Part shown: piece by piece, positions 5,824 to 20,339 of the stretch
Layout: each line of letters starts with the position of its first letter
Numbering within the stretch: the stretch's first letter is position 1
IMG/VR virus record: IMGVR_UViG_3300033233_000191
Location: 1-20,339 of that record
Source of the DNA: a virus
Direction: 5' to 3' (one strand)
Length of the DNA stretch: 20,339 nucleotides
Program-made: the position numbers and the translations under genes
Notes under the pieces: model-generated
The model's input: only the letters and a program-made list of their open reading frames with translations
Told to the model about the DNA's origin: nothing
Database searches by the model: none

Positions 5824-6066
5824 ATGCATTATAGAAACGGACGTGAAGCAAAGAATGGTGATAAGGTTATCAAGATAGGTAATAGCGGGGAGATTGTATC
5901 CTTCGGTGTATTGCATAGTGCAGTTGCAGGGAACGATTACTGTAATGGTGGAATTGCCCCACTGACGAATGACCAAGGTGCTTGCATGTGTGACTGCTTG
6001 CATATAGATGATGTTGCCGCTATTCTGGCGCAAGCTGGATTGAACAAACGCCCAGCGGGTAAGTAA
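5824..6066 (+). CDS. hypothetical protein, 80 aa
   Basis: AAGGAG directly before the ATG gives a strong start. The protein begins MHYRNGREAKNGDKVIKI and continues through a Gly-rich middle (VLHSAVAGNDYCNGGIAPL) to CMCDCLHIDDVAAIL. The N-terminal wording is familiar from small uncharacterised phage proteins with a KOW- or SH3-like beta barrel, but I cannot name the family with confidence. Four cysteines (YCNG, ACMCDC) might bind metal. Confidence 0.7.
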   Translation: MHYRNGREAKNGDKVIKIGNSGEIVSFGVLHSAVAGNDYCNGGIAPLTNDQGACMCDCLHIDDVAAILAQAGLNKRPAGK

Positions 6067-7498: not shown

Positions 7499-7640
7499 AT
7501 TCCCATCGGACTCTAAGAAAATCACAGTAGAGGCTGTTAATCTAGCCGAACATCTGTTACTCTCTTGTTGTCAAGAAACAGCACTTGTCGTAACACCGCA
7601 ACATACACTTTGGTTGAAACGTCCGGAGGAAAGTAAATAA
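7467..7640 (+). CDS. hypothetical small protein, 57 aa
   Basis: ATG 7467 opens a 57-codon frame that starts inside the previous gene and ends with TAA whose last base begins the next ATG (TAATG at 7638-7642). It fills what would otherwise be a 140-base gap. A GGTGGA sequence about 10 bases upstream can act as the ribosome site. The product reads like protein (FPSDSKKITVEAVNLAEHLL) and ends with a basic, acidic tail. The double overlap is the main evidence, and the family is unknown. Confidence 0.55.
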   Translation: MGKIGLVNYPKFPSDSKKITVEAVNLAEHLLLSCCQETALVVTPQHTLWLKRPEESK

Positions 7641-8329
7641 TGCAATTGTCTGTTCCAGAAAAAGCTCCATATTATATAATTTATCAGACTATAAATTTAG
7701 TAAACGGTAAAGTCTATATAGGAGCACATAAAACCAATAATTTTAATGATGATTATCTTGGGTCTGGAACAATTCTTTTTAAAGCGATAGAAAAATATGG
7801 TAGAAGTAAATTTAAAAGAAATATAATCTGTTTTTGTTCTTCCAAAGAAGAGATGTATCAAGTAGAAAGAGAATTCATAACTTCAGAATTTATATCAATA
7901 AATCGAGACATTCTTTATAATACAAAATCTGGTGGTATCGGAGGCTATAACTCTCGTAAAGGTAAACATCATTCAGACGAAACAAAAAGAAAATTGAGAG
8001 AAATTACAAGAGGTCCAATTAGTGCAGAAACTCGTAAGAAAATAAGTATAGCAACTAAAGGGATAAGAAAAAGCGAAGCGTGGATAAAAGCATTACAGCA
8101 AAGTACCAAAGGTAGAAAATTTTCAGAATGTGCAATACAAAAAGCAATAGAATATCATAAAAATAATCCCCCATGGAATAAGGGTATGATTGGTGTTTCT
8201 TTAGAAACTAGAGAAAAAATGAGAGTTGCTAAACTTGGGAAGAGTCTGTCAATTGAACAAAGACAGAATATGAGAAAATCTCAAATACTTCGGAGGAACA
8301 ATGAGCGAAATATCAATACCGTGGGTTGA
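7640..8329 (+). CDS. GIY-YIG homing endonuclease with NUMOD3-type repeats
   Basis: Residues 11-80 form a GIY-YIG nuclease domain: YYIIYQTINLVNGKVYIGAH (11-30) carries the paired GIY and YIG elements, YLGSGTILFKAIEKYG follows, and Glu77 in QVEREFI is the expected metal-binding catalytic residue. From about 105 onward come several short NUMOD3-like DNA-binding units (KGKHHSDETKRKLREITRG, WNKGMIGVSLETREKMR), the usual recognition part of such endonucleases. The ORF sits without spacing between a small gene and the clamp-loader gene, overlapping the latter by 29 bases so that the loader's ribosome site lies inside its end. The gene is more AT-rich than its neighbours, in keeping with horizontal entry. 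Confidence 0.88.
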   Translation: MQLSVPEKAPYYIIYQTINLVNGKVYIGAHKTNNFNDDYLGSGTILFKAIEKYGRSKFKRNIICFCSSKEEMYQVEREFITSEFISINRDILYNTKSGGIGGYNSRKGKHHSDETKRKLREITRGPISAETRKKISIATKGIRKSEAWIKALQQSTKGRKFSECAIQKAIEYHKNNPPWNKGMIGVSLETREKMRVAKLGKSLSIEQRQNMRKSQILRRNNERNINTVG

Positions 8330-9297: not shown

Positions 9298-9993
9298 ATG
9301 ATGACTTACTACTCTTATATATTTCTTGACGCTACAAAACCCGGAAGATTTACTTCCGAATTTGCTACTTTTTTCTTTGAACCGTTTTACGTTGGGAAGG
9401 GGAAAGACTCTCGAATAGATAGTAAACAAAGACATTTGATTCTTCGGGATAGATTGAAAAATTCTATACCTATAAAAGTAATATCGAATATTTCAGAAGA
9501 GTGCGCTTTGTGTTTTGAGAAGTATGTTATTCAATGTATCGGTAAAATACCATATGGTTCGTTATTGAATTTGACTAACGGTGGTGACGGCACTTCTGGT
9601 TGTAAATGTTCAGAACAACGAAAGCGAAAAATTGGTAAAGCAAATTCGATAGCTTTGAAAGGAAATATCCCTTGGAACAAAGGCAAACATAGTAAATCGG
9701 GGATGGAAGGTAAAACTCATTCTAAAGAAACGAAGATTCTAATGAGTAGAAATAGAACGGGCCGCAAATTATCAGAAGAACATAAGCAACGATTATCGGA
9801 AATTGCTACGGGTCGTATTCGTTCAGATAGTCATAGAAAATCTCTTTCAGACGCTTTAATCGGTAAAAAAGCGTCTGATGAGACCAGATTAAAGTTATCT
9901 GTTTCTCACTTGGGACAAATTATGACAAACGAAACTAAAAAGAAGAAATCTGAATCTATGAAACGATATTGGAAAGCGAGGAAAAGTTTATAA
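9298..9993 (+). CDS. GIY-YIG homing endonuclease (SegA-like) with NUMOD3 repeats
   Basis: The N-terminus YYSYIFLDATKPGRF (4-18) and PFYVGKGKDSRI (29-40) form a divergent GIY-YIG pair as in SegA-type enzymes. ALCFEKYVIQCIGK (70-83) holds the catalytic Glu74. After NLTNGGDGTSG come four or five NUMOD3-like repeats (GKTHSKETKILMS, GRKLSEEHKQRLS, SDSHRKSLSDALIGKKAS) up to a basic end. GAGGTG precedes ATG 9298; ATG 9301 is an equal alternative. It is inserted between the two clamp-loader subunit genes, which are adjacent in T4, and so it probably spreads by cutting and homing into phages that lack it. It shares architecture but little sequence with the gene at 7640. Confidence 0.88.
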   Translation: MMTYYSYIFLDATKPGRFTSEFATFFFEPFYVGKGKDSRIDSKQRHLILRDRLKNSIPIKVISNISEECALCFEKYVIQCIGKIPYGSLLNLTNGGDGTSGCKCSEQRKRKIGKANSIALKGNIPWNKGKHSKSGMEGKTHSKETKILMSRNRTGRKLSEEHKQRLSEIATGRIRSDSHRKSLSDALIGKKASDETRLKLSVSHLGQIMTNETKKKKSESMKRYWKARKSL

Positions 9994-13114: not shown

Positions 13115-13696
13115 ATGAGAGAAACTTCAGAATTCAGAATCCGCAAGAGAGCAGAACTTCTCCGAGAGCAAGATGGGAAGTGCTTTTATTGCAAAAAACA
13201 AATCAAAGGAAAAGCATCCCTTGACCACATTGCTCCTGTTGTGGGTGGTTACACGAACGAACATAACTATGTAGTAACGTGTATTCGTTGCAACAAGAAC
13301 AAAGCAGACTTCATCATATTTGCATCAATCATGGACCGCGAATACTATCCCATGGTCGATACTCCGTACTTTTTTCGAGCAGAAGAAATTCAGAAGAACA
13401 GGATGAAAGTTAGAAAGGAAATGAAAGATGAAAAACGTGCCTCTAAATGCGGTGAATGCGGTCGTAAAGTTTCAAAAAAGGGACTCTGCGATATGTGCAG
13501 AAAGACTATGCATCCAGAGCTTAAATTACAATATCAGCAACGACTTATTGGAAAGAAGTGGACAGACGAACAAAAAGAAAATCAAGTAGTTTTGTTAAAG
13601 AGCAAGAAAAACTGTGGTGGTATGAGAAGAGGTAGTGGCCGAGGCAAGAAACAAGTTTACAAAAAAATGTCATTTTGGATAGCACTTGGGAGTTGA
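13115..13696 (+). CDS. HNH homing endonuclease, N-terminal part (frame broken)
   Basis: Residues 20-66 are a textbook HNH nuclease: C23-x2-C26 (KCFYCKKQ), LDHIAPVVGG with Asp37-His38, NEHNY, and C56-x2-C59 followed by NKNKAD. A second zinc cluster (CGECGRKVSKKGLCDMC) lies at about 109-125. A basic region KKNCGGMRRGSGRGKKQVYK then leads to a sudden stop. In related phage endonucleases that glycine-arginine segment is followed by a PD-(D/E)xK-like end domain. Here that domain is found in the -1 frame starting at about 13660, across a run of seven A residues (13661-13667). The N-terminal part keeps a full nuclease site and may still cut DNA alone. Near-leaderless expression from the promoter at 13078 is likely. 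Confidence 0.78.
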   Translation: MRETSEFRIRKRAELLREQDGKCFYCKKQIKGKASLDHIAPVVGGYTNEHNYVVTCIRCNKNKADFIIFASIMDREYYPMVDTPYFFRAEEIQKNRMKVRKEMKDEKRASKCGECGRKVSKKGLCDMCRKTMHPELKLQYQQRLIGKKWTDEQKENQVVLLKSKKNCGGMRRGSGRGKKQVYKKMSFWIALGS

Positions 13697-18588: not shown

Positions 18589-18987
18589 GGGGGTGAAAGG
18601 TTTCGACATGGAGTAAAGATACTAGACTTTGCGCGGAGGTCTCACAGGCTCCTTAAAAAGGTGAAAACCAACAAATGCAAAAATTTCGAACGTAGTTTCG
18701 ATTTTCGCAAAGAGAGTTGCACAGGTGCTTGCGCCTTCTGCTCCTCTTGCAATGGCTGCCTAGTTCCATCGTGGTGAGGTACAGTGACGGGAGTAGAAAT
18801 ACCACCCGAATTGGGCAATAGCCACACAGCCGTTGCATTCAGTTTGTGTTCTCGGGGCAAACTGTCTTAACATTGACTTGAGAAAATAGTAGATTCAAAT
18901 GAATACTCAGATATGAGAGAATATCTAAGCGCATAAATGTCAAGTGTTAATATTTTATGGACGGGGATTCGATTTCCCCCACCTCCA
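18589..18987 (+). ncRNA. ssrA: tmRNA (ssrA), one-piece
   Basis: tmRNA rescues stalled ribosomes and tags the unfinished protein for proteolysis. The 5' GGGGGTG pairs with CACCTCC (18980-18986), including the G3-U70 pair (18591 with 18984) that marks alanine tRNAs, followed by discriminator A. The T arm is GGGGA-TTCGATT-TCCCC (18963-18979), and the conserved GGTTTCGACATGG follows the acceptor. Pseudoknot 1 can be drawn as GGAG/CTCC (18635, 18649) with TCAC/GTGA (18642, 18661). Twelve bases later GCA 18677 opens a tag frame that ends at TAG 18763. A long 3' helix (TTAACATTGAC with GTCAAGTGTTAA) closes the body. The length of 399 nt is within the bacterial range. CCA is not encoded. No clear promoter is seen directly upstream. 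Confidence 0.93.
18677..18763 (+). other. tmRNA tag peptide reading frame
   Basis: From GCA 18677, twelve bases after pseudoknot 1, the frame runs 28 codons to TAG at 18761-18763. It begins AKISNVVSIFAKRV and ends VLAPSAPLAMAA, whose small hydrophobic terminus fits ClpXP or ClpAP recognition. If resumption were instead at GCA 18707 the tag would be 18 residues. Most bacterial tags are about 8-15 residues, so either option is long. Confidence 0.7.
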
Positions 18988-18989
18988 CT

Positions 18990-19577
18990 ATGAGTTATTC
19001 TGAAGATTTATTTGAGCAGAGTCTTAATCTGGTTCTTAAACCGGGTATAAAAGTGATACGAAATTTTAGACCCGATTTTCTAAAGAATCCAAAGTCTGGT
19101 CATAATCTGGAGTACGACTTTTATATTCCAGAAGCTAAAGTAGCTTTTGAGATACAAGGCATTCATCATTTACGATGTATATCAATGTCAGAAAGACGAT
19201 TTGAAGCGTAAATTATCTCACTCGACTCGAATGATGTCATATTGCTAGAGATGGGAACTGTTCAAATAAGCGCATCGTGTATTCATAGAAAACTTCTAAA
19301 TGCTGGTCACTCTTCACGAAAAGAAATTCTGAATATATTCAGACCATACAGTAAAACTTGGGGTTCTGGACAACTTCATGAAGAGATAGCGAAATATAAG
19401 TTTAATATGAAACAGAAATACGGTGAGGAAACGAGCAGAACAAACCCAATTAAACTGTGTTCGAAGATAGAAACTGTTAATGTGGCCACATTCGATTCGA
19501 TGATAAGTATCGAAAGTCTTGAAACGGTCAGTTATCGGGTTAGATTGACAGCGGAAAAGAACGCTTCATCTCATTAA
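18990..19577 (+). pseudogene. decayed PD-(D/E)xK homing endonuclease
   Basis: ATG 18990 starts three bases after the tmRNA end (SYSEDLFEQSLNLVLKPGIK). The nuclease core NLEYDFYIPEAKVAFEIQGI has the acidic D...E-x-Q pattern of phage PD-(D/E)xK endonucleases. After GIHH the frame is lost at TTT 19169-19171; the next frame reads YDVYQCQKDDLKRKLSHS. A tandem ACTCG duplication (19220-19229) then shifts it again, and from 19242 the third segment continues LLEMGTVQISASCIHRKLLN to a stop at 19575-19577. Removing one ACTCG and restoring one base near 19170 gives one continuous protein of about 196 residues. Two independent lesions make a pseudogene likely; sequencing errors are the alternative. Confidence 0.72.
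19220..19229 (+). repeat. tandem duplication of ACTCG in the endonuclease
   Basis: ACTCGACTCG is a direct repeat of five bases. Deleting one unit turns the frame from KLSHSTRMMSYC-stop into LSHSNDVILLEMGTVQ, which matches the following open segment exactly. It is therefore a recent slip-type frameshift rather than ancient drift. Confidence 0.6.
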
Positions 19578-20339
19578 TGGTATGTGACAATCTTGAAAAT
19601 AGACGTATTCTGGAACTTATGGGACTTCAACTCCTACTTCAGATAAGGACTTTGTTGGTGTTCTTGTTGGTCTACCTGAGCATTATTACGGACTCTCGAC
19701 ACTTGAGCAGGTTGATTTGTCAACTCTGTCCAAGAGTGCTGATGGAAAGAACGATGAAAACGCTGTAGACCGGAAATTATACGAAATCCGCAAATTCATG
19801 AAGTTAGCCATGGAGAATAACCCAAATGTGCTAGAAATGCTGTTTGTGAACAAGGAGAACGTGGTTTTCGAAGATGCATTCGGACAAATGCTTCTCGACA
19901 ACGCTTATCTGTTCCCGTGGAAGGGAGCCAAGCAGAAGTTTCTTGGTTACGCATTCGGACAGAAACATAAGATGCAGATTCGTACAGAGAATTTTTCTGA
20001 CTTGAACATCGCTTACAGTTTCCTAGTAAGCGCCGTCGAGGAAACACCAAACAAACTTCTCGCTGAGTATCGCGGTTGTTTGCTCCCTGGTGGAATCGAT
20101 AAGGGTGATAGTTTCACCATCGGTGACTTGAACTTTCATCCAAGCAGAAAAATCAAAGACGTTGCGAAGATGTTGAAGTCTCGCTTGGACAAAGCTACCA
20201 ATCGTAGCGGGCTGATGGAGAAGTATGGTTACGACACAAAGTTTGCCAGCCATCTCATCCGCCTCATGTACGAGGGTCAGCACATCTTGAGAACTGGAAG
20301 GTTAATCTTCCCTCTCCCTGAAGCAGATTTCTTGAGAGA
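19577..20339 (+). pseudogene. nucleotidyltransferase-family protein (RlaP-like), frame-damaged start, runs out of the window
   Basis: From about 19603 to the window edge the frame encodes SGTYGTSTPTSDKDFVGVLV, the GS...YGT-x4-SD-x-D core of polymerase-beta-type nucleotidyltransferases of the RlaP kind found in phages. It continues through DRKLYEIRKFMKLAMENNPN, LEMLFVNKENVVFEDAFGQM and FLGYAFGQKHKMQ. No start codon exists in this frame before the motif (stop TAG at 19600-19602). ATG 19577, which overlaps the upstream stop as TAATG, opens MVCDNLENRRIL in another frame. A one-base shift near 19605-19611 would join both into a normal N-terminus. The nucleic-acid or nucleotide target is unknown, and the 3' end is missing. 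Confidence 0.68.

Follow-up and report, generated by a model that had tools for sequence, protein, structure and literature searches.

A one-piece tmRNA gene with a 28-residue tag in the record of a T4-type phage

A tmRNA releases ribosomes that have become stuck and adds a tag to the incomplete proteins on them. Towards the end of the phage record analysed here over its entire length of 20,339 bases (in the following "the window"), which is linear and probably a fragment, a first-pass annotation had recognised the hallmarks of such an RNA, namely G3-U70, T arm, pseudoknot 1, tag frame and closing helix. This raises the question of whether a genuine tmRNA gene is present and, if so, how unusual its tag is, where the gene came from and what it would do for the phage. 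ARAGORN and the Rfam model agree on a one-piece tmRNA (ssrA) gene at 18589-18987 of the plus strand (Table 1). ARAGORN calls a tmRNA from 18589 to 18988 with the tag AKISNVVSIFAKRVAQVLAPSAPLAMAA, and the covariance search which the annotation had proposed as a check, performed by cmscan with Rfam 15, places RF00023 at 18589-18990 over the full model (1-374) with a score of 113.1 bits. The gathering score serving as cut-off for this family is 47; across 45 bacterial genomes, none of the matches below this cut-off exceeds about 43 bits. The minimum-energy fold of the RNA lies 4.3 standard deviations below those of dinucleotide shuffles, none out of 100 being as low. The presence of a complete tmRNA gene in the phage record is thereby confirmed.

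Table 1. Positions of the tmRNA gene and of its elements within the window.
Feature	Position	Strand	Basis
tmRNA (ssrA), one-piece, CCA not encoded	18589-18987	+	ARAGORN; RF00023 113.1 bits, E 6.7e-44; fold z -4.3
Acceptor 5' strand GGGGGUG, paired with CACCUCC 18980-18986, G3-U70	18589-18595	+	fold; sequence
Long helix H2, 5' strand, paired with 18929-18959	18607-18634	+	fold; also in cmscan alignment
Pseudoknot 1 (PK1)	18635-18664	+	read from sequence against RF00023 model positions
Tag frame, 28 codons + TAG: AKISNVVSIFAKRVAQVLAPSAPLAMAA	18677-18763	+	ARAGORN; RF00023; context AACAAAUGCA
Possible hairpin within tag frame	18712-18748	+	fold
P5 helix, GCAATGGCTG 18749-18758 with CAGCCGTTGC 18827-18836, 10 bp	18749-18836	+	fold
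Likely late pseudoknot	18840-18886	+	read from sequence; inferred
T arm GGGGA-TTCGATT-TCCCC, stem 18963-18967/18975-18979	18963-18979	+	RF00023 alignment; fold

In its architecture the RNA resembles the bacterial one-piece tmRNAs described by RF00023, with which it shares the acceptor with G3-U70, the T arm, H2, PK1, the resume context, a stop codon in P5 and the late pseudoknot. The G3-U70 pair, which is the alanine-acceptor feature of tmRNAs, is present in the helix formed by 18589-18595 and 18980-18986, while H2 is interrupted and folds into segments of 9, 9 and 5 bp. PK1, which was read by eye and not taken from a pseudoknot-aware prediction, pairs GGAG (18635-18638) with CTCC (18649-18652) and TCAC (18642-18645) with GTGA (18661-18664); S1 and S2 thus comprise 4 bp each, and the element ends 12 nt 5' of GCA 18677, in agreement with the expected distance of about 10-12 nt. 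The late pseudoknot is likely formed by CAGTTTG (18840-18846) with CAAACTG (18858-18864) and by the loop TTCTC (18849-18853) with GAGAA (18880-18884). A18987, named as the mature 3' end in the first-pass annotation, is borne out in this role. Since positions 18988-18990 read CTA, CCA is not encoded, as in many of the bacterial tmRNA genes compared, and therefore needs to be added post-transcriptionally. A search of bacterial genomes for the exact 3' end of the RNA gave no match.

The annotation had left undecided whether the tag comprises 28 residues, read from GCA 18677, or 18, read from GCA 18707, and the longer reading holds. The covariance model aligns the conserved context AACAAAUGCA (AAnAAnUGC type) at 18677, which makes this GCA the resume codon. 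GCA 18707, in contrast, is situated 42 nt after PK1 and away from this context, and represents an internal alanine codon. From 18677 the frame stays open up to the stop codon TAG 18761 within the loop region enclosed by P5, the 5' strand of which encodes the end of the tag (AMA plus the first base of the last alanine codon). The tag terminates in ...LAMAA, a small/hydrophobic degron type, in keeping with the degron-like end noticed before. The possible hairpin within the frame is rejected as a selected RNA element, as a synonymous-codon control yielded a z of -0.70, with 126 of 500 controls reaching an equally low value, and 13 other tags subjected to the same control were likewise unremarkable.

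Tags of tmRNAs usually comprise 9-14 residues, and the 28 residues encoded by the phage gene set it apart from its bacterial counterparts. The commonest tag length is 10 residues (PMC11915505). For comparison, a T-arm pattern search of IMG/VR provided 120 stretches (L025-L144) with 97 tmRNAs, while a like pattern in bacterial genomes, together with samples of five phyla, supplied the bacterial genes. Among unique one-piece genes, with five doubtful frames excluded, tags of at least 21 residues occur in 10 of 43 tmRNAs from viral contigs versus 4 of 226 from bacteria. Grouping of relatives leaves a Fisher p of 0.0004 for clusters at 70% identity and of 0.09 for clusters at 60%; as the excess was noticed post hoc and shrinks on grouping, we treat it as a hypothesis. 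The long one-piece viral tags include those of L112 (27 residues), L113 (26), L085, L126 and L128 (24 each) and L064 and L076 (24 each), and the two-piece viral tmRNA L077 bears a tag of 31. Like the phage gene, these one-piece tmRNAs reside on viral contigs and end in a hydrophobic degron, but their tags are unlike that of the phage except for L112, the third-best tag match (z 3.0). Hence, the tag was rightly called unusually long when measured against the usual range, yet it is not singular, since tags of 21-31 residues recur in viral contigs; its length falls near the upper end of the range without being unique. It appears improbable to us that selection favours long tags in phage one-piece tmRNAs, the present phage being an extreme case, so that proteins tagged by the phage would meet a fate unlike that of proteins tagged by the host.

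The surroundings of the gene are clearly those of a phage. The window encodes the T4-type proteins gp44 clamp loader, gp32-like SSB, primase, ligase, RuvC-like nuclease and thymidylate kinase as well as RegA, and membership in the T4 type (gp32/gp44/RegA) is indicated by phrog_168, phrog_224, phrog_47 and PF01818, the last being the RegA family. Among 50,697 phage records no near nucleotide match was found, and neither INPHARED nor IMG/VR yielded a close relative. Searches via ligase and RlaP gave no relatives, while gp44 and gp32 led to protein relatives in IMG/VR of just 31-44% identity which share no gene block with the window. For a phage of this kind, possession of a tmRNA is normal, since 19 of 80 gp32 loci of T4-type relatives in IMG/VR have one nearby (L407-L471, e.g. 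L421:6575-6969). All of these are two-piece, as is the tmRNA of phage Melnitz (PMC9004378), in contrast to that of the present phage, the one-piece form of which suggests a host outside those groups that use two-piece tmRNA. That tmRNA genes in phages are known but uncommon, as previously stated, agrees with their occurrence in 402 of 18,146 phage genomes (PMC9004378) and with a count of 79 unique phage tmRNA sequences (PMC11915505). The mycobacteriophage Bxz1 group, Wildcat and Bacillus phage G (PMC4131195) as well as Melnitz likewise carry a tmRNA gene in the phage genome. In one viral contig (L137), a small protein (L137:2884-3126) 67% identical to that encoded at 5824-6066 of the window lies about 370 bp upstream of the contig's own tmRNA.

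The closest tags belong to the ssrA genes of one freshwater bacterial lineage (L165, L168, L220, L287, L288, L290, L292), among whose genomes L165 and L220 bear the titles "delta proteobacterium" or "Deltaproteobacteria" and L168 the title "Proteobacteria", all members falling into one single-class phylum. Its tags, AKNVIDASARFAARATQAFEPVAIAA, AKNVIHADFSRPQYALAA, AKNNVINAAARFARPSMPMAMAA, AKNNVIHANFARPAFAPAYAMAA and similar ones, follow the type AKN(N)VI...FAR...AMAA; the phage tag fits it in the form AKN(N)VI...FAR...A(M/L/I)AA, with ISNVV replacing NNVI and FAKR replacing FAR. When the phage tag was compared with those of 274 one-piece tmRNAs, two members of the lineage scored highest, L288 (z 4.5, matched or exceeded by none of 300 shuffles) and L165 (matched or exceeded by 4 of 300). 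The notion of a private tag is therefore not borne out. Comparison with the ssrA genes of candidate hosts revealed the same tag type, yet no identical tag. Given that other phages and this freshwater group also have long tags of a similar kind, we regard the phage gene as a new example of a known thing. With the tag excluded, pairwise comparison of the flanks on its 5' and 3' sides ranks the lineage genes 1, 2, 4, 5, 7, 8 and 11 of 274; as the seven are close kin, these ranks count as one observation. Like the phage gene, the lineage genes do not encode CCA, but their tags are shorter (18-26 residues) and their flanks just about 59-69% identical to those of the phage. A gp32-like gene was sought in 45 genomes of the lineage's class and none was found, which says little. 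In L165, the ssrA gene is intact, but a second copy of about 28 nt from its 5' end lies about 125 nt upstream, and ARAGORN overextends the gene because of this repeat; L287 and L282 are overextended likewise.

Viral tmRNA has been proposed to help maintain the hijacked machinery or to selectively tag host proteins (PMC9004378). In the present case, a functional tmRNA might be used against the host, either because its long tag alters the fate of tagged proteins (through a different protease or adaptor, or by slowing or speeding their decay) or because it displaces the host ssrA. A tag far longer than the usual 10 residues and the greater frequency of long tags in viral one-piece tmRNAs would fit such a use, but the tag ends in a degron of the usual type, ordinary bacterial tags match it best, and the enrichment fades with broader clustering. 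Judged from these comparisons, we consider a use against the host unlikely.

The similarity of the tag and, in pairwise comparison, that of the flanks speak for the lineage as source of the gene, whereas the maximum likelihood tree calculated from the flanking columns does not join the two. It groups the phage tmRNA with 21 viral tmRNAs (UFBoot 99, SH-aLRT 82.9), and descent within a phage-borne line of tmRNAs, with the likeness of the tags being convergent, is accordingly a reading to which we give somewhat less than an even chance. The SH-aLRT value is just 82.9, however, and the branches are long, more than one substitution per site separating the phage tmRNA from every neighbour. The aligned blocks of the phage tmRNA have a GC content of 0.41, those of the lineage 0.47-0.52, and phage sequences are AT-rich. 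Upon purine/pyrimidine (RY) coding the support for the viral grouping is gone, with no support either way, and neither placement is rejected by the AU test (p 0.17 for the lineage grouping). We retain the lineage as the strongest pointer to the host or donor, at odds of about even.

Immediately downstream of the tmRNA, an ORF at 18990-19577 contains a homing-endonuclease-like domain (phrog_559, phrog_9084). Its ATG at 18990 overlaps the base three positions beyond the mature 3' end of the tmRNA (CCA site), and the ORF may be broken, since a stop at 19209-19211 splits off an in-frame open remnant reaching to 19577. It is followed at 19717-20337 by an RNA-repair-type nucleotidyltransferase of the RlaP family (PF10127) which runs off the contig end. 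Further mobile endonuclease candidates are encoded at 7640-8329, 9298-9993 and 13115-13696, two with NUMOD3/GIY-YIG features and one of HNH type, the latter just before tRNA-Glu and tRNA-Gln. The possibly broken ORF, starting three bases past the end of the mature RNA, would be in line with the tmRNA being a decaying, functionless passenger, carried in by chance or with this neighbour, as would an Rfam score of 113 bits compared to 148-163 bits for the genes of the lineage. The intact paired elements, the resume context and the open 28-codon frame that ends in AMAA with its stop inside P5 argue against decay, and we deem a passenger very improbable.

Very probably, the gene encodes an ordinary functional tmRNA which works with SmpB and proteases of the host and benefits the phage through ribosome rescue, and the gene reached the phage from a bacterium or a different phage; the lineage with AKN(N)VI...FAR...AMAA tags is the best single hint at a source. 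The ORFs searched in the 20-kb fragment included no smpB, so SmpB is assumed to be that of the host. After addition of CCA, the alanyl-tRNA synthetase of the host would charge the RNA with alanine, and the RNA would then bind host SmpB and enter ribosomes stalled on broken messages. Translation would then switch to GCA 18677, append AKISNVVSIFAKRVAQVLAPSAPLAMAA and stop at TAG 18761, and the -LAMAA end would direct the tagged product to host proteases of the ClpXP type. The phage would probably gain from ribosome rescue while host messages are destroyed and transcription of the host ssrA fails.

The gene adds a one-piece, long-tag tmRNA to T4-type phages, the distant relatives found carrying the two-piece form. 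Our small survey hints at an over-representation of long tags in viral one-piece tmRNAs, a claim that is testable on the whole tmRNA database with its 97,179 sequences (PMC11915505). For the phage itself, the freshwater lineage and its uncommon type of tag may provide a lead on the host.
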